Origin: Pseudothermotoga thermarum DSM 5069
GTDB taxonomy: Bacteria; Thermotogota; Thermotogae; Thermotogales; DSM-5069
Reading direction: 5' to 3'
NCBI RefSeq assembly: GCF_000217815.1
Contig: NC_015707.1
Coordinates: 930,001 to 994,000 of the forward strand
DNA: 64,000 bases
In this document: piece after piece, positions 30,142-48,168 of the stretch
How the letters are laid out: every line of letters starts with the position of its first letter
How positions within the stretch are numbered: the first letter of the stretch is position 1
Notes under the pieces: generated by a model
Told to the model about the DNA's origin: nothing
What the model saw: only the letters and a program-made list of their open reading frames with translations
The model's database searches: none
Made by a program: the position numbers and the translations under genes

Positions 30142-30166
30142 TTATATAATTATGTTGAAAGTTAAT

Positions 30167-30328
30167 ATTCGAGCGCCAGAGGGTACCCGCAAGGGTTTAA
30201 AGGGGAAGCCGGTGAAAATCCGGCGCGGGTCCGCCACCGTAACCGGGGACGAAATCCACGTGATGCCACTGGCTTTTAAGCCGGGAAGGCGTGGAGAGTA
30301 GGATGATCCGGGAGCCGGGAGACCTGCC
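30167..30328 (+). ncRNA. Cobalamin riboswitch
   Basis: Recognisable by conserved pieces: GCCGGTGAAAATCCGGC hairpin, then CCGCCACCGTAA, a GGGAAGGCG segment and the B12 box AGCCGGGAGACCTGCC (30313-30328). The downstream expression platform is a terminator at 30341-30379 that would form when cobalamin binds. A TATAAT at 30145-30150 is the likely -10. It precedes btuFCD, so it lowers B12 uptake when B12 is abundant. Confidence 0.95.
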
Positions 30329-30330
30329 CC

Positions 30331-30379
30331 TGGTCAATTGACCATCCTCTTCGAGACCAAGAGGATGGTGAAATTTTTT
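30331..30379 (+). terminator. Riboswitch-controlled terminator
   Basis: ACCATCCTCTT (30341-30351), loop CGAGACC, AAGAGGATGGT (30359-30369), then GAAATTTTTT. The palindrome TGGTCAATTGACCA (30331-30344) overlaps the 5' arm and can form an alternative hairpin, giving the switch. Confidence 0.9.
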
Positions 30380-34669: not shown

Positions 34670-34674
34670 TAAAA

Positions 34675-34725
34675 TGTGGTTGAGATTTGGAGAAAGCCAC
34701 ATCCCGTTTGGGGTGTGGCTTTTTT
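34675..34725 (+). promoter_or_regulatory. GlpP-type antiterminator/terminator leader, copy 1
   Basis: Two alternative hairpins share bases. Terminator: 11-bp stem AGCCACATCCC (34695-34705), loop GTTT, GGGGTGTGGCT (34710-34720), then T-run. Antiterminator: TGTGG (34675-34679) with CCACA (34697-34701), enclosing GAGATTTGGAGAAAG. The block GAGATTTGGAGAAAGCCA differs by one base from copy 2 at 41655-41672. The genes behind it (glycerol-3-phosphate oxidation) and the nearby glpP gene point to GlpP control. Confidence 0.85.
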
Positions 34726-34742: not shown

Positions 34743-36182
34743 ATGAAAGTTGTTGTCATAGGTGCTGGCGTTGTGGGCAGCTTAATAGCAAGGGAATTTT
34801 GCAAATACGACGTTGAAGTTACTTTGATTGAGAAAAATCTCGACGTTGGCTGGGGTGTAACAAAGGCGAACTCAGCCATATTACATGCTGGATATGATGA
34901 TCCCCCTGGAACAACTCGCGCAAGGTTTTGTTCAAAAGGAAATGCGATGTACGATCAGCTTGCCAAAGAGCTCGATATAGAAGTTAAGAGAATAGGCTCG
35001 TATGTTGTGGCATTCGATGAACAAGAATTCAAAGTGCTTGAAAAGCTTTTAAATCAAGGTAAAACAAACAATGTACCAGGATTAGAAATTCATGATCGAA
35101 ATGAGGTTCTCAAAAGGGAACCAAATTTAAATCCCCAGGTGTTAGCTGGTCTATGGGCACCAACTGCAGGTATCACAGAGCCATGGAATGTTGCCGTCGC
35201 AGCAGTTGAAAATGCCATCTCCAATGGTTTGAAATTGATACTTGGAGAAAAAGTTGTTGGCTTTGAATTCCATGGAACACGGATAAAAAAAGTTATAACC
35301 GACAAGAACTCTTACGATGCTGATCTTGTTGTAAACGCGGCTGGTCTATTTGCAGATGAGATTGCAAAACTCGCAGGAGCTGAATATGTGCCGCTTTACC
35401 CACGCCGTGGTGAGTACATATTGATGGACAAAAAACTCGGTAAAATTGTTAATTCAGTTATCTTTCCAACTCCCTCATCAATTTCAAAGGGCATACTGAT
35501 CTTACCAACCGTGGACGGAGGATTACTTCTAGGACCAACTGCTGAAGATTTGCCGGAGGATATGAAACAAAATCTTGGAACTACCTCCTCAGGTTTGCGA
35601 CAAATAAAGGATTTCGTCAAGAAGTTAGTGCCGAATATAGATTATTCATTCGTTGTCAAAACTTTTGCTGGTTTAAGACCTGAAAGTCCCCAAAAAGATT
35701 TCTTCCTAGGTCCAAGTAAAGTCGTTGCAAATTTTATAAATGCCATGGCGATGAGATCTCCCGGATTAACAGCCGCACCAGCAATAGCAAAATACATAGT
35801 CGAAGACGTTACTCAAGGGCAACTTGCGTTTAAGTTGGAGAGGAAGAAAGACTTCAATCCATACAGAAAAGCAATAAAGAAAATGGTCGAGTTGCCGCTA
35901 GAGGAATGGCAACGGATTGTCCAAGAAAATCCGGCGGCTGGAAGGCTAGTGTGTTTTTGCAACGAAGTCACGGAAGCAGAAATCATTGAAGCTATAAGGC
36001 GAGGAGCAAGAACTTTGGATGGGATCAAATTTAGAACAAGAGCAATGTTTGGAAGATGTCAAGGTGGATTTTGTAGCATCAGGATAATGAAAATCCTCCA
36101 ACGTGAACTTGGTGTGGATATGTCACAAATCGTTTTAAAATCTCCTGGCAGTTGGATCGTTGATGGGAGGGTTAGAGAATGA
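34743..36182 (+). CDS. FAD-dependent glycerol-3-phosphate dehydrogenase-like (GlpA type)
   Basis: 479 residues. FAD fold at the start (VVVIGAGVVGSLIAREF), a DAO-type oxidase core, and a carboxy-terminal BFD-like [2Fe-2S] domain (LVCFCNEVTEAEI and FGRCQGGFC, residues about 400-445). It should oxidise glycerol-3-phosphate to dihydroxyacetone phosphate, together with the next two genes as partners. GGAGG precedes the ATG at 34743; a longer reading would translate the leader. It overlaps the next gene by 4 bases. Confidence 0.9.
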   Translation: MKVVVIGAGVVGSLIAREFCKYDVEVTLIEKNLDVGWGVTKANSAILHAGYDDPPGTTRARFCSKGNAMYDQLAKELDIEVKRIGSYVVAFDEQEFKVLEKLLNQGKTNNVPGLEIHDRNEVLKREPNLNPQVLAGLWAPTAGITEPWNVAVAAVENAISNGLKLILGEKVVGFEFHGTRIKKVITDKNSYDADLVVNAAGLFADEIAKLAGAEYVPLYPRRGEYILMDKKLGKIVNSVIFPTPSSISKGILILPTVDGGLLLGPTAEDLPEDMKQNLGTTSSGLRQIKDFVKKLVPNIDYSFVVKTFAGLRPESPQKDFFLGPSKVVANFINAMAMRSPGLTAAPAIAKYIVEDVTQGQLAFKLERKKDFNPYRKAIKKMVELPLEEWQRIVQENPAAGRLVCFCNEVTEAEIIEAIRRGARTLDGIKFRTRAMFGRCQGGFCSIRIMKILQRELGVDMSQIVLKSPGSWIVDGRVRE

Positions 36183-37390
36183 AAACCGATGTTCTTGTTG
36201 TAGGTGCAGGTGCTGCTGGAATGGCTGCTGCTTTAAGTGCGGCAAAATCTGGAATGAAAGTAATGTTGGTCGACAGAGATGAAAGAACTGGCGGGATACT
36301 TAACCAATGTATTCACAACGGTTTTGGTTTACATTATTTCAAGGAAGAGCTTACAGGTCCAGAATACGCCGAAAGATTTGCCAAGCTTCTTGAAGATTAT
36401 GATATAGATGTTCTCGTTGATTGTCATGTTCACAAAATTTTTCCAGATAAACGAGCGATTTTGGTTTCGCCAAAAGGGGTCTTTGAAATTGAAACAAAAG
36501 CATTGATCTATACAGCAGGAGCAAGGGAAAGGCCGTTCGGTTCGCTGATGATTCCAGGTGATAGACCCTCTGGAATTTTCACGGCGGGAGTTGCTCAAAG
36601 GTACATGAACATTGAAAATCGTTTGATAGGTAAGCGCGCCTTAATTCTTGGCTCTGGAGACATAGGCATGATTATGGCAAGACGCCTAACACTTGAGGGA
36701 ATCGAAGTAGTTGGAGTTGTGGAAAGATTACCTTATCCAGGGGGACTTTTGAGAAACGTCATCCAATGCCTTGAAGATTTCAACATCCCGCTTTATCTTT
36801 CAAGTACTGTTGTTGAAGTAAAAGGCAAAGAAAGGCTCGAAGAGGTTGTGGTTGCAAAAGTTGATCAAAACTTCAATCCAATACCGGGTACTGAGACGAT
36901 TTTCAAAGTGGACACACTTGTTTTGTCTGTAGGATTAATACCTCAAGTTGAACTTTTGAATGGTTTAGTCGAATTGGACCCCATATCAAAAGGTGTTGCG
37001 TGTTCAAACCTTGGACAAAGTAGTAATGAATGGATTTTTGCCGCCGGAAATTGCACAGTCATATACGATCTTGTTGATTACGTTACCCTTGAGGGCGAAA
37101 AAGCAGGTAAGTACGCTGCTCGGTACATCAAAGGTGAAAAGTTCGAAAAGTCAATTCCAATCAAAGCTGGGGAAAACGTGGGAATAATCTTTCCGAGTCG
37201 TTATGTCCCTGTTGAAGACTTAGTTCTTTATGTGAGAAGTAAAAGACCACTTGAAAAAGCGATCCTAGCAATTGGAAACTTTGAGAAAGTATTCGAAGAT
37301 CTTGTTCCAAGTGAGATGCTCAGAGTAAGAATACCAAGGAATAAACTTGAAAATTTTGAGCAACTTGAAGTATCGCTAAAGGAGGTTTAG
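36179..37390 (+). CDS. NAD(P)/FAD-dependent oxidoreductase (glp operon)
   Basis: 403 residues with an amino-terminal FAD Rossmann fold (DVLVVGAGAAGMAAALSAAK) and a second nucleotide fold (KRALILGSGDIGMIMARRLT, about residue 155). The ILNQCIHNGFGLHYF segment lies where disulfide-reductase-like enzymes have redox residues. In Thermotogae and clostridia it forms a conserved trio with the GlpA-like and DUF1667 proteins, and probably passes electrons between glycerol-3-phosphate dehydrogenase and NAD(P). Confidence 0.9.
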   Translation: MKTDVLVVGAGAAGMAAALSAAKSGMKVMLVDRDERTGGILNQCIHNGFGLHYFKEELTGPEYAERFAKLLEDYDIDVLVDCHVHKIFPDKRAILVSPKGVFEIETKALIYTAGARERPFGSLMIPGDRPSGIFTAGVAQRYMNIENRLIGKRALILGSGDIGMIMARRLTLEGIEVVGVVERLPYPGGLLRNVIQCLEDFNIPLYLSSTVVEVKGKERLEEVVVAKVDQNFNPIPGTETIFKVDTLVLSVGLIPQVELLNGLVELDPISKGVACSNLGQSSNEWIFAAGNCTVIYDLVDYVTLEGEKAGKYAARYIKGEKFEKSIPIKAGENVGIIFPSRYVPVEDLVLYVRSKRPLEKAILAIGNFEKVFEDLVPSEMLRVRIPRNKLENFEQLEVSLKEV

Positions 37391-37394
37391 AAAG

Positions 37395-37742
37395 ATGAAT
37401 AGAATTGTTTGTGTTCAATGTCCAGTTGGTTGCAAAATAAAGTTTGAACTTGTCGATGGTAAGTTAACAAAAATAGAGGGTAACAAATGTCCCAGAGGAC
37501 TGGATTACTTGAAAGATGAACTTGCGGATCCCAAGAGAATCATTCCAACGAGCGTAAGAGTTATCGATGGAGAATATGAACTTGTTTCGGTAAAAACATC
37601 CAAACCTATTTCAAAAAAATATATTCCACAACTTATGGAAATTTTAAAGAAGATAAAAATAAACGCCCCCGTGAAGGTCGGGGATGTTGTGTTGAAGAAT
37701 TTCATGAACACTAACGTTGATATAATCGCAACCAGAAGCGTT

Positions 37743-37766
<24 letters not shown>
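37395..37766 (+). CDS. DUF1667 protein, third component of the glp trio
   Basis: 123 residues. Cysteines CVQCPVGCKI near the start and KCPRGLDY (about residue 33) form a likely metal or iron-sulfur site resembling the amino end of molybdopterin oxidoreductases. The rest is the DUF1667 fold. AGGAGG region before the ATG. The 3' end overlaps the convergent glpP gene by 24 bases. Confidence 0.9.
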
Positions 37767-39805
<2,039 letters not shown>

Positions 39806-39812
39806 TCACCTC

Positions 39813-41597
39813 TTATGCAGCAAATTGGATGGCTTGGCCAGCAACAATGTACCAAGTCACAAACAGTGCATTTGTAAAGGCTCCAACGTATATACTACCA
39901 GTTCTTCGATAGAAGAAAGCAGATATTGCTCCTGCTACAGCTGTTAGGAAGACAAATTGGTATGCAACAATACCAAGAAGAGATTCCGTTGGGAAGAACA
40001 AAGTCTGAGTTGTGTACAGTTTTCCCACCTGCAGGGCAACCAATATTGCAATACCTAAACAATTTGCGGCTGCTGAGCTAACCATCCAAAGAGCAGTTGT
40101 AGATACTTCGGATCTTAAGATCTTTGCTTTCAACTGTCCATTTAGCACCAACGCATTTACAAATGTAAACAACGCAAATGGTGGCAAGAATTTTATAAAG
40201 ATCCAGAACCTTGCAAAATCCATCGGCTTAAGTGCAATAACCCACCATCTGAAATCCACTTTGAGTGCCCATTGAACGATCGACAAAACTATGTGTGTAG
40301 CAAAAACTGTGCAAACGGCAAGTGCAAAGGCTTTCCACAATTGCTTAAGGCTGAAAGACTTTTTCTCAGTGCTTGTTGAAAGACCATAACTGATCATGTT
40401 TGCTCCCATTCTACGATGGTAGGCAAAGTGCCAAACTATGAACAAGCCAACGGCAATCAAAGCGTTGAGCGTTGCCCACTTAGCGAATCCAACTGTTAGA
40501 CTTTGGGGCCAGAATGCACTTGCTTTGACGTTCTTTTGGAATCTAAAGAATATCAAAGCTGGTATTCCAGTAACCAGCGCAAATCCTATCCACCAAACAA
40601 TTGTTGCAATAGCTTTGTTCTTGGGCTCTAAAACAAATGCTTTTCCGTGAAGAGATTTAAAGTAATTTGTATCAAGCAAAGCTGCACCATAACTTATAAG
40701 AAACATAATACCACCAATCAAACCGAGTAATGTTCCAAATTCTTTCCATGGCCATATTTGGTTTTTGGGATCAATGAACTTAGGTGGTTTTATAGAATCT
40801 TGCAGAAATTCTATCGCATATCCTATGGCCTCCGTTGACAAATGGTCTCCGGGATGTGTGCAGTTTGGAATGTACAACTTTCTTGCTGTCTCGTTCTCAA
40901 AGGAGCCATAAAGTTTACCAGGTACCACATCCTCTGTCGTTCCAAATGCAGTCTTCAACTTTGCAGTTTTGACTATGTCAGATGGTATATCCACGCCCCA
41001 CATCAGTTTGCTAAACTCATCATATTTGCTGAAAATCACAGCAAAGTTAAACCCAGAATCAATAGTTACTTTTGGTGCGCCAAATGTTTCAGACGATGAA
41101 CCCATAAGAATAACTGTCTTTACCAAATCTGGGTGTCTGCCTGCAGCCGTTAATACCGACCAACCACCCATTGAGTGGCCTTCCACTGCTATGTTTTGCT
41201 TATCCACAAATGGTAGACTTGCTAAATACAAAAGGCCATCTTCTGCGCCACGGGTGGGGTTGGCTATTCCACCCTTGATTTGTTCTGAATAACCATGTCC
41301 AGCCATATCCATCGCAAGAACTACATATCCACGGCGTGCAAATTCAATGTTGAATCCACTTTGAGTCTCTCGAGAATTAATATAACCGTGCATTGTCAAA
41401 ACAGCTGGAGCAGGTTTTTCAGCAGATACACCCTTGGGCAAGAACAAATACGCCGACAGAACCTTACCATCTGAACTGATGAACCTAACCTCTTTGACCT
41501 GTACTTTTCCAAAATCTGTTTGGACTAAGAAAGCGATCAATGAACCAATGAAAACAACTACCACAGAGAAGAGAACCCACGCTACTGACTTTTTCAC
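39813..41597 (-). CDS. Membrane-anchored alpha/beta hydrolase, first gene of the glpK operon
   Basis: About 594 residues. One amino-terminal membrane segment (WVLFSVVVVFIGSLIAFLV), then an alpha/beta-hydrolase domain (residues about 40-270): MHGYINSRE, nucleophile VEGHSMGGWS and a CTHPGDHLS histidine. The carboxy half (about 290-594) has 8-9 membrane segments. The hydrolase domain is probably outside the membrane. A longer reading exists from 41693, but it would translate the leader; GTG at 41597 has GGGGGG-type pairing. Position before glpK suggests it releases glycerol from a lipid or ester. That is an inference. Confidence 0.8.
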   Translation of the reverse strand: MKKSVAWVLFSVVVVFIGSLIAFLVQTDFGKVQVKEVRFISSDGKVLSAYLFLPKGVSAEKPAPAVLTMHGYINSRETQSGFNIEFARRGYVVLAMDMAGHGYSEQIKGGIANPTRGAEDGLLYLASLPFVDKQNIAVEGHSMGGWSVLTAAGRHPDLVKTVILMGSSSETFGAPKVTIDSGFNFAVIFSKYDEFSKLMWGVDIPSDIVKTAKLKTAFGTTEDVVPGKLYGSFENETARKLYIPNCTHPGDHLSTEAIGYAIEFLQDSIKPPKFIDPKNQIWPWKEFGTLLGLIGGIMFLISYGAALLDTNYFKSLHGKAFVLEPKNKAIATIVWWIGFALVTGIPALIFFRFQKNVKASAFWPQSLTVGFAKWATLNALIAVGLFIVWHFAYHRRMGANMISYGLSTSTEKKSFSLKQLWKAFALAVCTVFATHIVLSIVQWALKVDFRWWVIALKPMDFARFWIFIKFLPPFALFTFVNALVLNGQLKAKILRSEVSTTALWMVSSAAANCLGIAILVALQVGKLYTTQTLFFPTESLLGIVAYQFVFLTAVAGAISAFFYRRTGSIYVGAFTNALFVTWYIVAGQAIQFAA

Positions 41598-41624: not shown

Positions 41625-41679
41625 AAAAATAAAAGCCATACCTAATTTTAGGTATGGCTTTCTCCAATTCTCCGCCATA
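41625..41679 (-). promoter_or_regulatory. GlpP-type antiterminator/terminator leader, copy 2
   Basis: On the minus strand, the terminator is AGCCATACCT with AGGTATGGCT (41634-41659) plus T-rich tail. The antiterminator pairs TATGGC (41674-41679) with GCCATA (41653-41658) and encloses GGAGAATTGGAGAAA. Compared with copy 1, the shared block is 17 of 18 identical, and both arms of the antiterminator change together (TGTGG/CCACA to TATGGC/GCCATA). Confidence 0.87.
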
Positions 41680-41706
41680 CAAATGAACTTCACTTTTGCT
41701 AGTTAA

Positions 41707-41734
41707 ATTTTATCACATTTTATGCCTCTGTCAA
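41707..41734 (-). promoter_or_regulatory. Promoter of the hydrolase-glpK-glpP operon
   Basis: Minus strand TTGACA (41729-41734), 16-base spacer, TAAAAT (41707-41712). The start would be about 41700, some 20 bases before the antiterminator. Confidence 0.85.
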
Positions 41735-41942: not shown

Positions 41943-42909
41943 TTGTTAAGCAAAAGAGTTTTCGTAGCTGCTTTGTCTTTCTCAAAATACAGCAAAGAGC
42001 CCAAAGGAATATCTTGAAAAAAATGGCATTGAGTTGATTTGGAATCCAGTTGGCAGACCTTTGAAGGAAGAAGAATTAATTGCTGAACTTTCCAAGGTTC
42101 TTCCAGTTCATGGCATAATAGTAGGAGTTGATCCAATAACGAGAAAAGTTATAGAATCATTACCAGATCTCAAAATTATTGCAAAACACGGCGTTGGTGT
42201 TGACAACATAGATTTAGTTGCAGTAAAGGAGCGTGGGGTGATCGTTACCAACGCTCCTGGGTCCAACAGCGAATCTGTAGCTGATTTGACTTGGGCACTT
42301 ATACTGGCAGCCGCAAGACAAATTCCCAAAGCAGACCGGGTGACAAGACAAGGAAGATGGGATAGACTTGTAGGATACGAGATTTATGGAAAAACAATTG
42401 GAATAATTGGAACAGGTCAAATTGGTTTGGCTGTAGCAAGAAGAGCGAGAGGTTTTAACATGAAAATACTTGCCTATGATAAATTTCCAAACGAAAAGGC
42501 GGCCAAGGAAATTGGAATAACATATGTTTCATTGGAACAACTTCTTAAAGAAGCAGATATTATAACAGTTCATGTTCCTTTGACTGATGAAACAAGAGGA
42601 TTAATTGGGAGGAATGAATTCGAATTTATGAAAAGGACAGCCATTTTTATAAATACTTCCCGTGGAGAAATAGTAGATGAAGAAGCGCTTTATGAAGCGC
42701 TTAAGAGTAATCGAATTTGGGCTGCAGGGCTCGATGTTTATTCCAAGGAACCACCTATTGGTAATCCTTTGTTAGAACTTGAAAATGTTGTTTTGACACC
42801 GCATCTTGGCGCTTACACTGTTGAGGCAAATTTAAAAATGGGTATGGCAGCTGCAAAGAGCATTGTTCAGACTTTCAAAGGTGAGGACCCTGAAAACAGG
42901 GTTGTTTAA
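41943..42909 (+). pseudogene. D-2-hydroxyacid dehydrogenase, frameshifted near the start
   Basis: From TTG at 41943 (AAGGAG 9 bases upstream) the frame gives LSKRVFVAALSFSKYSKEPK, then meets TGA. From about 42004 the next frame continues KEYLEKNGIELIWNP and the rest of a normal dehydrogenase: TIGIIGTGQIGLAVARRARG, NTSRGEIVDEEAL, LDVYSKEPP and LTPHLGAYT. One extra base near CCAAAGGAAT explains the break. The catalytic domain is complete; translation from an internal start (42034) would lack only about 30 residues, so activity may persist. Likely role: reduction or oxidation of a sugar-acid product. Confidence 0.8.
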
Positions 42910-42943
42910 GTTTTACAATATCTTATTAAGGAGGTGTGGAGCG

Positions 42944-43951
42944 ATGAAAGTTCGCGGGTTTGTAGTTCTTGGGTTAATTTTGTTGATCACCTCAATTCTT
43001 CTTGGAGCGCCAAGATACGTGCTCAAGTTCAACCATGTTTTGTCGCCGACATCGCCTTATCATGAAGGGTTTTTGAAGTGGGCAAAAGCTGTTGAGGAGA
43101 GAACAAACGGGGACTTGAAGATTGAAGTTTATCACAGTGCTCAGCTTGGTGTGGAGGAGGACATTCTTGAGCAAATTCGTGCTGGTGCCAACATTGGTCA
43201 GAACACCGACTCTGCGCGAATGGGGATGTATGTCAGAGAAATTGCAGTCATGAACGCTGCTTACTTCATTGATTTCATGGGTGCAAAAACCCCAGAAGAA
43301 GTTATGGAAGTCTTGCAGAAGATCAAGAATTCCCCAACGATGCAAAAATGGTTAACTGAACTTGAACAAAAGTATGGTTTCAAAGTACTTTCTTTCATGT
43401 GGGTTCAAGGTTACAGACACTTCTTCACCAACAAACCAATTAGAAGACCTGAAGATTTGAAAGGCTTGAGAGTGAGAACCCCACCAGCGCCGGTTTGGCA
43501 GGAATCTATAAGAGCTCTTGGAGCACAACCAGTGGCTATGGCGTTTGGAGAGATTTACACTGGTATTCAAACGAAAGCCGTTGACGGTGCTGAACTAGTT
43601 TACGAAAACATATATAGTGGAAAACTTTACGAAGTGCTCAAATATGGTTCGGAAACTGGTCACATTCTCTTGATAAACTTCGAAGTTGTCAGCGCAAAAT
43701 GGTTCAACAGTCTGCCGCCCGAATATCAAAAGATACTCGTGGAAGAATGCGACAAAGCTGGAATTGAGACCTCTTTGAAAATCATGAAAGAACTTGATGC
43801 TTATTACAAGCAACAGGTAATTTCAAAGGGAATGCAAATAATCACAGATGTTGATAAACAAGCTTTCATGCAAGCCGCCGAACAGTGTTACAAAGTACTT
43901 GGCCTTTTGGATGCTAGAAATCAACTGATGAAGGAAGTCAAAGGGCAATAA
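42944..43951 (+). CDS. dctP: TRAP transporter solute-binding protein (DctP)
   Basis: 335 residues. Signal peptide (VRGFVVLGLILLITSILLGA), then the DctP fold: HVLSPTSPYHEGFLKWAKAV, FTNKPIRRPEDLKGLRVRTP (the carboxylate-binding arginine region) and GAQPVAMAFGEIYTGIQTKA. TRAP receptors bind sugar acids or other carboxylates. ATG at 42944 has AAGGAGGTG upstream. It is intact, although the two membrane genes behind it are frameshifted. Confidence 0.93.
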   Translation: MKVRGFVVLGLILLITSILLGAPRYVLKFNHVLSPTSPYHEGFLKWAKAVEERTNGDLKIEVYHSAQLGVEEDILEQIRAGANIGQNTDSARMGMYVREIAVMNAAYFIDFMGAKTPEEVMEVLQKIKNSPTMQKWLTELEQKYGFKVLSFMWVQGYRHFFTNKPIRRPEDLKGLRVRTPPAPVWQESIRALGAQPVAMAFGEIYTGIQTKAVDGAELVYENIYSGKLYEVLKYGSETGHILLINFEVVSAKWFNSLPPEYQKILVEECDKAGIETSLKIMKELDAYYKQQVISKGMQIITDVDKQAFMQAAEQCYKVLGLLDARNQLMKEVKGQ

Positions 43952-43980
43952 ATATGAAAATACCGTACTAATTATCTTTC

Positions 43981-44014
43981 GGGGCCCGATCAAATAGGTC
44001 GGGTCCCTTTAAAT
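43981..44014 (+). terminator. Intercistronic hairpin between dctP and dctQ
   Basis: GGGCCCGA pairs with TCGGGTCCC, with one mismatch, followed by TTTAAA. It is a weak terminator or mRNA stabiliser after the receptor gene. Confidence 0.6.
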
Positions 44015-44031
44015 TCAAAAGGGGTGAGTCA

Positions 44032-44518
44032 ATGAAAAGAAAGGATTATCTCTTATTGTTTGAGAAATATGCTGCAAAAATCTTAATTCTTTCAATGGTC
44101 ATTTTGGTTTTCGCATCAGGTGTTGCAAGATTTCTGAAATATCCTATAAATTGGGCGGTTGATATGAGTACTTTTATGTTTGCTTGGGCATGTTTTTTCG
44201 CCTTTGATGTGGCTTGGAGAGAATAAGATGATGTCTGTTGATCTTTTTGTTAAACGCTTGCCAAAAAAAGCGCAAAAAGTTATAAAAGCAATAAACTATC
44301 TCATAATCTCAGCTTTCTTGGTTTATCTAATAATCTGGGGATCTCAGCTCACATATGCCTCTAGGTTTAGAAGATTTCTTGGAATGCCAGCTGTAAGCTA
44401 TGCATGGGTGAATTTGAGTGTTCCAATTGGTGCGGCTTTGCTTTTAAGAACAACTATTACCAAAATGATTGCCGAATTGAAAAATACTGAAGACAAGGGA
44501 GCTGAAAAGTCATGTTGA
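44032..44518 (+). pseudogene. dctQ: TRAP transporter small membrane subunit (DctQ), frameshifted
   Basis: The first frame gives two membrane segments and ends FAFDVAWRE-stop (44224-44226). The next frame resumes NKMMSVDLFVKRLPKKAQKV with the other two segments. Joined, the protein is about 161 residues, normal for DctQ, and RENKMMSVDLF matches the conserved RE-x5-VDL site. Loss of one GA from a GAGAGA tract (AGAGAATAAG) would explain it. GGGGTGA precedes the ATG. Confidence 0.8.
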
Positions 44519-45802
44519 TTGTTCTTATAGCATTTGCCGCTTTTTTATTGATGGGAATGCCTGTTGCGTTTTCGATAGGAATATCGGGTTTTTTGTGGTT
44601 TTTGCAGCATCCAAATCTTCCTATTACCATACCAATTCAAAGGGCTCTTTCTCAAACCCAAAATTTTACTCTCTTGGCCATTCCTATGTTTATTCTTGCA
44701 GGAAATGTGATGAACTACGCTGGTGTTACGAAAAGACTTCTTGATTTTGCTTCATCTTTGACTGGTCACATGAGAGGAGGACTTGGTCAAGTTTCGGCAG
44801 TCCTTTCAACTTTAATGGGAGGAGTTTCTGGTTCAAGTATTGCTGACGCAGCTATGGAAACAAGAATGCTCGGGCCAGAAATGCTCAAAAGGGGATATCC
44901 AAAAGGTTTTGCCGTAGCTGTTAATGTTTGGACATCGCTTATCACGCCAATAATACCTCCAGGAATTGCATATATACTCTATGGCACCATAGGTGGAGTT
45001 TCCATAGGTAGATTGTTTGCAGCTGGTATTTTACCTGGGTTGCTTTTGATGGTTTCGTATATGATTGCTATTTCAATATCCGCAAGACGATTAGGATTGA
45101 AACCCGAAAGGCCAAAGAGAGCTTCGTTTTCGGAAGTTAGCTCAGCTTTCATAAAAAGCGTGTGGTCACTTGTCTTCCCTGTTCTTTTGATTTTTGGACT
45201 TAGGATGGGGATGGGGATATTTACTCCTTCGGAAGTAGGATCATTTGCGGTACTTTATGGTTTGCTAGTGGGCTTTTTGATCCACAGAGAGCTTGATTTG
45301 AAAACCTTTTTAACAAAGACAATGAGTGATACCATTGGTGATATTGGGAGTGTGATGGCGATAATAGCACTTTCAGCAATTTTTGACTACGGAATGGTTT
45401 GGGAAAGGATACCTGAAAAGCTTGCAAATATTCATGCTTGGTATAAGCTCAAATCCCACGATCTTAATGCTTATAATCGTAATGTTCTTAATCTTTGCGG
45501 GCTTGTTTATTGATGCCACGGCACTAATCCTTATGACGACTTCTGTTTTCCTTCCAGTAGCCCGTCGAATAGGCATCGATCCAGTTCACTTTGGGCTTGT
45601 TTTCATTCTTGCTGCCGCCATGGGCAATCAAACACCACCCGTTGGTGCATCGATGTACGCCGGTTGTTCGATTCTGGGAGCAAGTGTTGAGGAGTACACA
45701 AAGGCTTCTGGTCCTTTCTTTGTGGCAGCAATACTTGTTATTCTTGCTGTAATTTTCTTCCCGCAGATTTCCTTGATCATACCAAATCTACTCTTTAAAT
45801 AA
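44512..45802 (+). pseudogene. dctM: TRAP transporter large membrane subunit (DctM), frameshifted
   Basis: The first frame covers about 310 residues (FLLMGMPVAFSIGISGFLWF, MGGVSGSSIADAAMETRML) and ends in non-homologous residues after ERIPEKLAN. The next frame resumes FMLGISSNPTILMLIIVMFL and runs to the normal end (TPPVGASMYAGCSILGAS). One extra base near GCAAATATTC (about 45424) accounts for it. The joined length, about 430 residues, is standard. It overlaps dctQ by 7 bases. Confidence 0.82.
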
Positions 45803-45820
45803 TAAAGGAGGTTATAGAAT

Positions 45821-46582
45821 ATGAATTTCACAGGAAAAGTAGTTTTGATAACAGGTGCTGGAAGTGGTATAGGAAGAAAAGCAGCGATTATGTTTGCAGA
45901 AAGAGGTGCGAAAGTTGCAGTTAATGACATATCAGAAGAAAGAGGGAATGAAACTGTTGAAATGATAAAACAAAATGGAGGAAATGCTGTTTTCATCTTT
46001 GGAGATGTATCAAATTCGGCTGACGCAAAAAGAATAGTAGAAGAAACTGTGAGACATTTTGGACGTCTAGATATCCTTGTCAACAACGCAGGAATTGTTC
46101 CAGCTGGAAAAGTTGAGGATGTAACTGACGAAATTTTTGAGAAAACTATGGCAATAAACGTGAAAGGTCCTATTATGCTTTCTAAGTATGCAGTTCAGGA
46201 GATGAAAAAGCAAGGCGGTGGAGTAATCGTAAATGTATCATCAGTTGCAGCGCTTAAAGGCATTGCTGATAGATGTGTTTATAGCGTTTCAAAAGCGGCC
46301 TTGCTTGGTTTAACAAAATCAATGGCACTTGACTACGTCAAGTACAACATCAGAGTGAACGCAGTTTGCCCAGGAACAACTTATTCTCAAGGTCTTGCTG
46401 AAAGAATTAAAGCTTCACCTGATCCGGAAGCCACTTTGAGAGAAATGATAGCTCGCCAACCTGTCGGACGGTTGGCAAAAGAAGAAGAAATAGCTTTTGC
46501 AATCCTTTTTGCTGCATGCGACGAAGCTGCTTTCATGACAGGCAGTTATATTGTGATTGATGGTGGTGCAACAACTGCTTAA
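45821..46582 (+). CDS. Short-chain dehydrogenase/reductase
   Basis: 253 residues, classical SDR: TGAGSGIGRKAA (cofactor loop), NNAGIV, catalytic Ser in VSSVAAL and YSVSK (Tyr, Lys). GDVSNSAD after the second strand and NDISEERG at the acidic position suggest NAD preference. Its place between the TRAP genes and a sugar kinase suggests oxidation or reduction of an imported sugar acid. AGGAGG precedes the ATG. Confidence 0.92.
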   Translation: MNFTGKVVLITGAGSGIGRKAAIMFAERGAKVAVNDISEERGNETVEMIKQNGGNAVFIFGDVSNSADAKRIVEETVRHFGRLDILVNNAGIVPAGKVEDVTDEIFEKTMAINVKGPIMLSKYAVQEMKKQGGGVIVNVSSVAALKGIADRCVYSVSKAALLGLTKSMALDYVKYNIRVNAVCPGTTYSQGLAERIKASPDPEATLREMIARQPVGRLAKEEEIAFAILFAACDEAAFMTGSYIVIDGGATTA

Positions 46583-46647
46583 TTTGAAGCATGTTTTGAA
46601 AGGTTATAAAAATCTAGTAGATTTAGGTTGTCGTAGAGGTGAATGAG

Positions 46648-48168
46648 GTGAATTCTGTATTCTTGGGACTTGACATAGGAACAACCGGCGCGAAATGTTG
46701 TGCTTTCGACGAAGAAGGCAACTTGATTTCTCTAGGAAGACAAAACTACGGGGTCATTCAACCCAAAGCTGGTTGGGTTGAACAGGACCCCGATGAGATA
46801 ATCAACGCAGTTTTTGATTCCATCAAGCAATGCTTGCATGGGCTAAATCAAACTCACCAAGTTGAAGCCATTGGTCTAAGCAGCATGTTTCACAGCACAC
46901 TCTTGGTTGACGCACAGACGCAAAAACTCACAAATCTGATAATTTGGGCAGATACAAGGGCAGCTCATATTTTGAAGAACTATCAGGAAACTTTCTGGCA
47001 TCTTTACCCTCTTACAGGTTGTGTTTACCATGAGATGTATCCACTGGCAAAACTCATTTGGTTAAAACTGGAAAGACCAGATCTGCTTGAAAAATCAAAC
47101 AAAATAATTAGTATTAAAGAATACGTACTTTGGCACTTGGCAAATACGATGGCTGTTGATATTTCAATTGCCTCTGGAACTGGTTTGTTTAACATTCACA
47201 CAAAAAACTGGGAAAAATCAATCTTTGATGAATTGAAAATTGATATATCCAAGGTGAACCAAACGGTTGCTCCTTCAACAATCGTTGGGTATATCACAAA
47301 AGAATGCAGCAACGAAACAGGCTTAAAACAAGGAATTCCAGTTATCATCGGAGCAGGTGACGGAGCTCTTTCCACTCTCGGTTCAAATTGCTTAGATGAA
47401 AGCAAAATGACCTTCATGGTTGCTACAAGTGGTGCTGTTAGAAAAATCTCGAAGAAACCAATAATCGATTCTCAAAGAAGAACCTGGTGTTACATCCTTG
47501 ACGAAGAAAATTGGTTGCCTGGTTCTGCGATCAACAACGCTGGAATAGTCATGAGTTGGTATGTGAAGAATTTCTATGCCAATATGATAGATGAAAAGAT
47601 TGATCCGTACAAACTCATGGAAAAATGGGCTTTAGAGATTGCAGCAGGTTCGGAAGGTTTGATCTTTCTTCCTTTCTTGACAGGTGAAAGAGGGCCTTAC
47701 TGGAACTCAAACGCAAGAGGTATAATTTTTGGAATGGCGCTTCATCATGACAGAAGACATCTTGCAAGAGCCATTGTTGAGGGTGTTGCTTTCAGAATGA
47801 AAAGTATATACGAAGCTCTTTGCGATGTGGCAGGTAAGCCAGAAAAAATCATAGCAACCGGCGGATTGATGAAATCAAACCTTTGGGCACAGATTTGTGC
47901 TGATGTGTTAGGAACAAGTATTCATCGTACAAACGTTGAGGAAGCTTCCTCTTTTGGAGCAGCAATAATGGCTATGAAAGGAGTAGGTGTCATAAAAAAT
48001 TACGATGAAATTCTTTCGAAAACGGTTAACATCGTTGAAAGTTTTAAGCCAATCGAAGAGAACCAAAAGATTTATTCCAAGCTTTATGAAATCTACAAGG
48101 ATATATACACTAAACTGCAAGAAGATTTTATTTTCATAAGTCACTTTCAGCAGGGAATCCTTCCCTAA
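46648..48168 (+). CDS. FGGY-family sugar or sugar-acid kinase
   Basis: About 506 residues. Phosphate motif LGLDIGTTGAKCCAFDEEGN, then QPKAGWVEQDPDEI, and a carboxy-terminal ATP-binding domain (GGLMKSNLWAQICADVLG, EEASSFGAA). It resembles gluconokinase/xylulokinase-type members; the SDR beside it and TRAP import would fit gluconate-like acids. GTG at 46648 is 5 bases after GAGGTGA; GTG at 46639 lies inside that site. Confidence 0.88.
   Translation: MNSVFLGLDIGTTGAKCCAFDEEGNLISLGRQNYGVIQPKAGWVEQDPDEIINAVFDSIKQCLHGLNQTHQVEAIGLSSMFHSTLLVDAQTQKLTNLIIWADTRAAHILKNYQETFWHLYPLTGCVYHEMYPLAKLIWLKLERPDLLEKSNKIISIKEYVLWHLANTMAVDISIASGTGLFNIHTKNWEKSIFDELKIDISKVNQTVAPSTIVGYITKECSNETGLKQGIPVIIGAGDGALSTLGSNCLDESKMTFMVATSGAVRKISKKPIIDSQRRTWCYILDEENWLPGSAINNAGIVMSWYVKNFYANMIDEKIDPYKLMEKWALEIAAGSEGLIFLPFLTGERGPYWNSNARGIIFGMALHHDRRHLARAIVEGVAFRMKSIYEALCDVAGKPEKIIATGGLMKSNLWAQICADVLGTSIHRTNVEEASSFGAAIMAMKGVGVIKNYDEILSKTVNIVESFKPIEENQKIYSKLYEIYKDIYTKLQEDFIFISHFQQGILP

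Follow-up and report, generated by a model that had tools for sequence, protein, structure and literature searches.

A predicted membrane-anchored alpha/beta hydrolase heading the glycerol kinase operon of Pseudothermotoga thermarum and its place in a GlpP-type regulon

GlpQ is a secreted phosphodiesterase. The GlpP regulon of Bacillus subtilis comprises glpD, glpFK and glpTQ, and one report (PMC9604022) describes glpQ as also being switched by GlpP, so that there is precedent for GlpP control of an enzyme that releases glycerol. The locus considered here resembles this regulon in its GlpP-type protein, its conditional-terminator leader and its glycerol and glycerol-3-phosphate targets, the leaders being likened by their layout. 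It differs in that the recurrent target is a predicted fusion of a serine ester hydrolase with a membrane domain, and in that glpF is absent in P. thermarum. No paper on a link between this hydrolase and GlpP was found in open-licence PubMed Central.

The Thermoanaerobacter lipase TTL (PDB 7q4j, 7q4h and 9h0z) is a long-chain monoacylglycerol lipase, for which a structure with a monoacylglycerol intermediate and bound glycerol is described in PMC10682391. The alpha/beta hydrolase fold of TTL is shared by the model of the hydrolase domain (Z 21.1, 2.6 A, 204 residues), but identity is only about 19% and the aligned TTL chains, of 247-259 residues, have no membrane domain. For the membrane domain, the nearest described proteins are of the CPBP fold. 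PMC7387801 counts Rce1, APH-1 and SpdC among the proteins with this fold, and proposes that its degenerate members assist a partner enzyme and do not act as proteases. Like SpdC and LnsB, the membrane domain described here is without the protease residues. Unlike SpdC/SagB, LnsB/LnsA and APH-1/gamma-secretase, the CPBP-like domain (model pLDDT 65.7) and the hydrolase lie in one polypeptide, which is placed under GlpP control by its leader sequence.

The operon and its leader

The window is the whole stretch of DNA that was analysed, 64,000 nucleotides of P. thermarum DSM 5069; the genome is a single contig of 2,039,943 bases, and the whole-genome searches cover its 2.04 Mb. Features of the locus are collected in Table 1. 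The operon has the order hydrolase-glpK-glpP on the minus strand, with the hydrolase gene at its head, and the glpA-, glpB- and glpC-like genes are convergent to it on the plus strand. The start codon of the hydrolase gene lies 50 bases beyond the antiterminator. An alternative frame of 626 amino acids begins within the leader; the alignment of relatives starts at MKK or MRK, which favours the 594-residue frame. This frame is more than a chance reading, since a full-length homologue is present in 19 of 103 Thermotogota genomes. The encoded protein has one N-terminal helix, then an alpha/beta hydrolase with a GHSMG motif, and eight predicted helices that make up its C-terminal domain. The original prediction of a membrane-anchored hydrolase with a C-terminal polytopic domain at the operon head is thus borne out by a real frame, by Pfam matches and by nine predicted helices.

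Table 1. Positions of the features of the hydrolase locus, counted within the window.
Feature	Position	Strand	Basis or remark
Membrane alpha/beta hydrolase gene	39813..41597	-	594 aa, GTG start at 41597, stop codon included
N-terminal transmembrane helix, residues 2-26	41520..41594	-	structure-model helix; hydropathy peak 2.78
Alpha/beta hydrolase domain, about residues 32-270	40788..41504	-	Pfam, alignment, fold search
Ser142	41172-41174	-	catalytic-residue position
Asp193	41019-41021	-	catalytic-residue position
His248	40854-40856	-	candidate catalytic His, alternative to His252
His252	40842-40844	-	candidate catalytic His, alternative to His248
Eight-helix membrane domain, residues 282-587	39837..40754	-	structure models; CPBP-like fold without EExxxR
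glpK, glycerol kinase	38300..39802	-	PRK00047 869 bits, TIGR01311 781 bits
glpP, glycerol-3-phosphate-responsive antiterminator	37743..38303	-	PF04309 E 1e-65 (1.1e-65)
glpA-like FAD glycerol-3-phosphate dehydrogenase	34743..36182	+	DAO and Fer2_BFD; under NCBIfam cut-offs
glpB-like FAD/NAD oxidoreductase	36179..37390	+	Pyr_redox_2
glpC-like DUF1667 protein	37395..37766	+	PF07892
Sigma-70-like promoter, TTGACA-16-TAAAAT	41707..41734	-	11/12 matches
GlpP-type antiterminator (arm - GGAGA NNN GGAGA - arm)	41648..41684	-	R1 48.4 bits, E 1.8e-11, whole genome
Intrinsic terminator, 5' arm in common with antiterminator	41631..41662	-	14 pairs, then T-run
Second GlpP-type antiterminator, before glpA	34670..34706	+	R1 37.4 bits, E 5.7e-8, whole genome
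Terminator-like hairpin of the glpA leader (AAGCCACATCCCGTTTGGGGTGTGGCTT, then T-run)	34694..34721	+	read by eye

The 301-base region contains four promoter-like sites, against 0.8 in shuffles, and the leader before the hydrolase gene folds with a z of -3.21. The segment GTATGGC-GGAGAATTGGAGAAA-GCCATAC is able to form the antiterminator, with a 3' arm that doubles as the 5' arm of the terminator. A covariance model of the eight-pair antiterminator, R1, finds exactly two significant sites in the whole P. thermarum genome, before the hydrolase gene and before glpABC, the next best having an E of 0.175. The hydrolase site is also matched (E 1e-9) by R2, a model trained without hydrolase leaders. 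At glpA, the promoter/terminator pattern scan did not list a terminator, though a hairpin is discernible by eye. Taken with the regulon described below, these leader sequences argue for the GlpP control of the operon that had been proposed. In the Rfam search of the window the leader was not covered by any family, and the sole match at the gathering threshold was a cobalamin riboswitch at 30164-30345 (118.7 bits).

Two further observations concern neighbouring genes. The glpA-like protein scores highest as a type 2 glycerol-3-phosphate oxidase (297 bits against a cut-off of 460); it carries a BFD-like [2Fe-2S] domain, and the third gene is of the DUF1667 family, so that the set is not of the enteric GlpABC type. 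On the plus strand at 42034-48168 lies a separate cluster for a 2-hydroxyacid dehydrogenase, a DctP-type TRAP transporter, a short-chain dehydrogenase and a second FGGY kinase, in which one transporter gene seems to be split across the overlapping frames 44512-45513 and 45383-45802.

The leader and gene neighbourhoods in the Thermotogota

Twenty-two leaders were aligned (A1), 18 of them in a reduced set (A2); three hydrolase leaders (L040, L046 and L044) and one glpK leader (L052) were left out of both A2 and R1. In A2 the pairs of the antiterminator stem are formed in 92.4% of cells, three pairs have changes on both sides, and the covariation score of the stem is reached by none of 500 shuffles. 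The full A1 set has 86.3% paired cells and a covariation score that is likewise reached in 0 of 500 shuffles, as is that of A5, the alignment of 24 leaders of other glp genes only. R2 was built from A5 because circularity was to be avoided, and was run on 32 loci; R1 was run on 57.

Across the 103 genomes of the phylum, R1 gave 62 sites at E <= 0.001, spread over 32 genomes, and 58 of these sites were mapped; outside the mapping are the two hits in P. thermarum itself, known already, and those of G012 and G013. The gene that follows is glpA at 29 mapped sites, the hydrolase at 11, glpK at seven and a UgpB-like transporter (assigned under the NCBI cut-off, 257 against 411 bits) at five, with single instances of a PiT-like permease then glpK, a MIP channel and DhaK; the other three sites are unassigned, unrelated or at a contig edge. 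From this list, the hydrolase is the only frequent leader target without an assigned role. R2 places the leader before the hydrolase gene in 12 of its 19 Thermotogota homologues at E <= 7e-6 (P. thermarum itself, G000, with G048, G050, G057, G058, G059, G062-G065, G071 and G073), including three genomes of g3 in which it is kept although glpK is far away. Directly before the hydrolase in six other genomes (G036, G037, G038, G060, G081 and G082) R1 and R2 are weak or silent, and variants of the leader are read only by eye. One of these, G037, has an R2 site 4.3 kb upstream (E 5e-5), before the UgpB-like gene heading a cluster that ends in the hydrolase. Since R1 and R2 sites precede it, and most of the remaining sites in the phylum lie before glpA, glpK, glpF, dhaK or the UgpB-like transporter, the hydrolase gene is, as judged from leader sequence, a member of the GlpP regulon. 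The glycerol link now extends from one operon to a regulon in several families of the phylum, and so is stronger than had been claimed. A GlpP match was found in 80 of the 103 genomes, among them all 19 with the hydrolase; this co-occurrence (P 0.005, relatedness ignored) is mild support only, because the P value is uncorrected for kinship.

Several other arrangements were seen with these leaders. A PiT/sulfate-permease-like gene lies between the leader and glpK at L122 (G035), and between a by-eye variant and glpK at L078 (G036), for which phosphate supply to glycerol kinase is a possible reason. DhaK-DhaL-DhaM-like genes lie under a GlpP-type leader at L126 (G047), and a UgpB-like ABC transporter operon has such a leader at L115-L118 (G062-G065) and L130 (G049). 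Several genomes of genus g13 (L069-L072) have two glpP genes, one in a glp operon and one nearby on the opposite strand.

The full-length homologues in 19 Thermotogota genomes were found by profile search, 18 being recovered with a single sequence. Thirteen are in or adjoining glp operons, and with the glp genes abbreviated to their last letters the orders are hydrolase-K-P (G000 and G062-G065), hydrolase-A-B-C (G038), hydrolase-K-A-B-C (G071 and G073), hydrolase-A-B-C-K-P (G082), hydrolase-K-A-B-C-P (G048 and G050) and ugp-glpQ-hydrolase-A-B-C-P (G036 and G037). The remaining six (G057-G060, G081 and G085) lie away from glp operons; three of these have a model-supported GlpP leader and two more a variant seen by eye, and G085 (L133, 7391-9436) alone has no glp neighbours and no leader that can be seen.

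Seven homologues, 38-44% identical, were counted outside the phylum (four in Syntrophaceae, two in Colwellia and one other); of the ten homologue loci, L005 and L006 coincide with G065 and G064, and L014, a match of 162 bases at the end of a contig, was set aside. None of the seven has glp neighbours in the fetched flanks, and no GlpP leader was found at them with R1 (best E 3.8). The expectation that relatives would keep the hydrolase with glp genes therefore holds within the phylum (13 of 19) and fails outside it (0 of 7), and glp linkage is a feature of the Thermotogota which does not define the protein family. In a midpoint-rooted tree the 594-residue type (f1 and G038) joins the proteobacterial proteins, apart from a 690-residue type (f2 and f10); independent recruitment of two subfamilies is not claimed, because of the midpoint root and the long branches that meet there. 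At the Syntrophaceae loci L007 and L013 the hydrolase homologue has, no more than 8 kb away, a gene that by eye looks patatin-like, which hints at lipid metabolism there.

Hydrolase and membrane domains

The Pfam family Hydrolase_4 (PF12146) matches with 52.3 bits against a cut-off of 27, and together with Abhydrolase_1 and related families it covers residues about 29-174. GHSMG occupies residues 140-144, and Ser142, Asp193, His248, His252 and Glu77 are unchanged in all 21 aligned homologues. By family and motif the protein is predicted to be a serine esterase/lipase of the Hydrolase_4 type, which includes monoacylglycerol lipases, with an intact GxSxG-Asp-His triad. The nearest folds are those of esterases and lipases; TTL leads, but its score is tied with those of feruloyl esterases and PET46, which lie with the hydrolase 7qjm within about one Z unit of it; the fold search leaves lipases, feruloyl esterases, PET hydrolases and dienelactone hydrolases unseparated. 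Glu77 is a candidate counterpart only of Glu43, which contacts glycerol in TTL: it aligns one residue away from the acid in the two chains that match best, TTL is not among the alignments listed, and the nearby loop 73-75 has a pLDDT under 50. The whole-protein model is of moderate confidence (pLDDT 69.5). With the hydrolase placed outside, the loops predicted to be cytoplasmic hold 16 Lys and Arg residues and those of the other side six, and on the strength of these loop charges the hydrolase domain is predicted to face the outside of the membrane. Anchoring to the membrane, as originally proposed, is likewise predicted, by the N-terminal helix and the eight C-terminal helices.

Those eight helices are predicted both in the whole-protein model and when the domain is modelled alone. 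Asp448, Arg450, Trp452 and Lys457, in one loop of this domain, are unchanged in 21 of 21 homologues, and the Asp-x-Arg-x-Trp loop is predicted on the outer side. Searches by sequence gave little: no Pfam family was matched by the membrane domain of the P. thermarum protein (CCB1 appeared at 0.0066 in two of ten members), the Pfam CPBP model gave no match at E <= 1 in any of the ten, and neither PHROGs nor PF00230 (MIP/GlpF) matched. Foldseek returned nothing significant (best SpdC, E 0.54), so that the CPBP reading depends on a second aligner, in which SpdC scores Z 11.8 (4.2 A, 212 residues), Rce1 Z 9.8 (4.8 A, 210 residues), two gamma-secretase chains (APH-1) Z 6.3 (5.0 A, 164 residues) and the rest 5.7 and below, all under the Z of about 13 beneath which the aligner itself warns of uncertainty for helical models. 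MIP channels are not among the matches listed by this aligner, which excludes nothing. The EExxxR motif is absent from all 21 aligned homologues, and the domain is therefore called CPBP-like and not a CPBP protease. What we take, by spacing, to be the last CPBP His position is Asn576 here and Asn in 20 of 21 homologues. In the models the domain looks like a degenerate CPBP fold, and it is probably a non-catalytic scaffold that anchors the hydrolase or presents lipid to it. The fusion to this CPBP-like domain is the most unusual part of the protein and also the least certain.

Proposed role and competing explanations

The reading preferred here, with a probability of about 0.6, is that the protein would be an extracytoplasmic, membrane-tethered serine ester hydrolase serving glycerol acquisition. 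Glycerol-3-phosphate made by GlpK would bind GlpP, which would steady the antiterminator at 41684-41648, so that the overlapping terminator would fail to form and the polymerase would transcribe through into hydrolase-glpK-glpP; the same switch would open glpABC. The substrate of the hydrolase would be an ester in the membrane or close to it, for which a monoacylglycerol or another acylglycerol is the likeliest candidate, and the glycerol released would pass the membrane without GlpF. GlpK would then phosphorylate it and GlpABC would oxidise the product to dihydroxyacetone phosphate, giving a positive loop. We infer the substrate, the passage of glycerol and the role of the membrane domain, as well as, by analogy, the action of GlpP as in Bacillus. 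The route from lipid to dihydroxyacetone phosphate that had been suggested is plausible. The literature search, including the accessible part of PMC7795431, found no mention of the host species feeding on lipids or glycerides.

Foremost among the rivals is phospholipid deacylation, which we consider rather improbable. On the outer side of the membrane the enzyme would remove the acyl chains of (lyso)glycerophospholipids, the resulting glycerophosphodiesters would enter by the UgpB-like transporter, and a GlpQ-like enzyme would cut them to glycerol-3-phosphate for oxidation by GlpABC. In its favour are the gene order in G036 and G037 (UgpB-like, two permease-like, GlpQ-like, hydrolase, glpA, glpB, glpC, glpP), the R2 site that precedes the UgpB-like gene in G037, the separate leader of the UgpB-like operon in four g4 genomes and G049, and the GDPD gene retained in the P. 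thermarum genome. That GDPD gene, however, has no leader by R1, and the UgpB-like transporter of P. thermarum looks damaged, since its best-matching place, outside the window (L134, G000:C1:254367-254801), keeps only residues 291-435, 86% identical to those of the G063 protein; an intact permease gene follows, and neither the 5' part nor any GlpP leader is left. Moreover, in nine of the 19 homologues (G000, G062-G065, G071, G073, G048 and G050) the hydrolase lies directly before glpK, which points to free glycerol. Both glycerol esters and phospholipids could be substrates.

Glycerol-3-phosphate also supplies the backbone of phospholipids, and the hydrolase might instead edit or recycle the cell's own lipids, or transfer acyl groups, when glycerol-3-phosphate is high, without a catabolic role. 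In keeping with such housekeeping, the hydrolase transcript is separate from glpK and glpA in some genomes, and PMC7387801 has the CPBP-fold LnsB working with the acyltransferase-like LnsA in lipoprotein acylation. The other frequent leader targets with an assignment, however, are all genes for uptake or breakdown of glycerol, glycerol-3-phosphate or dihydroxyacetone, and presence in only 19 of 103 genomes is a poor fit, which makes this an unlikely explanation. Less likely still, the enzyme may be a mere passenger of the operon, whose substrate is a peptide or an ester without glycerol: Pfam also gives matches to the peptidase families S9 and S15 and to acetyl xylan esterase, many prolyl-oligopeptidase-type chains are among the Foldseek matches listed first, and the proteobacterial homologues have no glp neighbours, but a passenger would not need the leader that is retained where the gene is away from glpK.

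As had been stated, the window holds no glycerol facilitator, and no MIP/GlpF family match was detected in the whole 2.04-Mb genome, in a search whose control was positive in eight of 14 genomes, including Thermotoga maritima. This absence says little, because GlpF exceeds the cut-off in only seven of the 103 genomes and a glycerol-kinase match is found in 98. It is scarcely credible that the eight-helix domain replaces GlpF as a pore for glycerol: GlpF is absent from all 19 hydrolase-bearing genomes, and in genus g34 a MIP/GlpF gene with its own leader precedes glpK in G047 where G048 and G050 have the hydrolase, but most GlpK-bearing genomes have neither, the domain model resembles CPBP-fold proteins, and the non-overlap is not significant (P 0.23), for which reason exclusion of GlpF was not used as evidence.

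A tentative and rather doubtful extension is that the polypeptide may be a single lipid-deacylating machine, in which the degenerate CPBP-fold domain would draw glycerolipids from the membrane and hand them to the outward serine hydrolase, the whole being RNA-switched by glycerol-3-phosphate, the product of its own pathway. It would then match, in fused form, the two-part systems SpdC-SagB and LnsA-LnsB, and would allow lipid glycerol to be used as food in hot, anaerobic habitats. The leader is now defined and covarying, with a short list of targets that includes one frequent gene lacking a role, and that gene encodes a hydrolase, predicted to face outward, joined to a domain that resembles the non-catalytic CPBP proteins, a group with little-understood roles. 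If glycerol is freed from lipids by this enzyme, these thermophiles would gain a lipid-fed route to dihydroxyacetone phosphate, and the protein would make it possible to test, within a single polypeptide, how a CPBP-fold domain serves a hydrolase.
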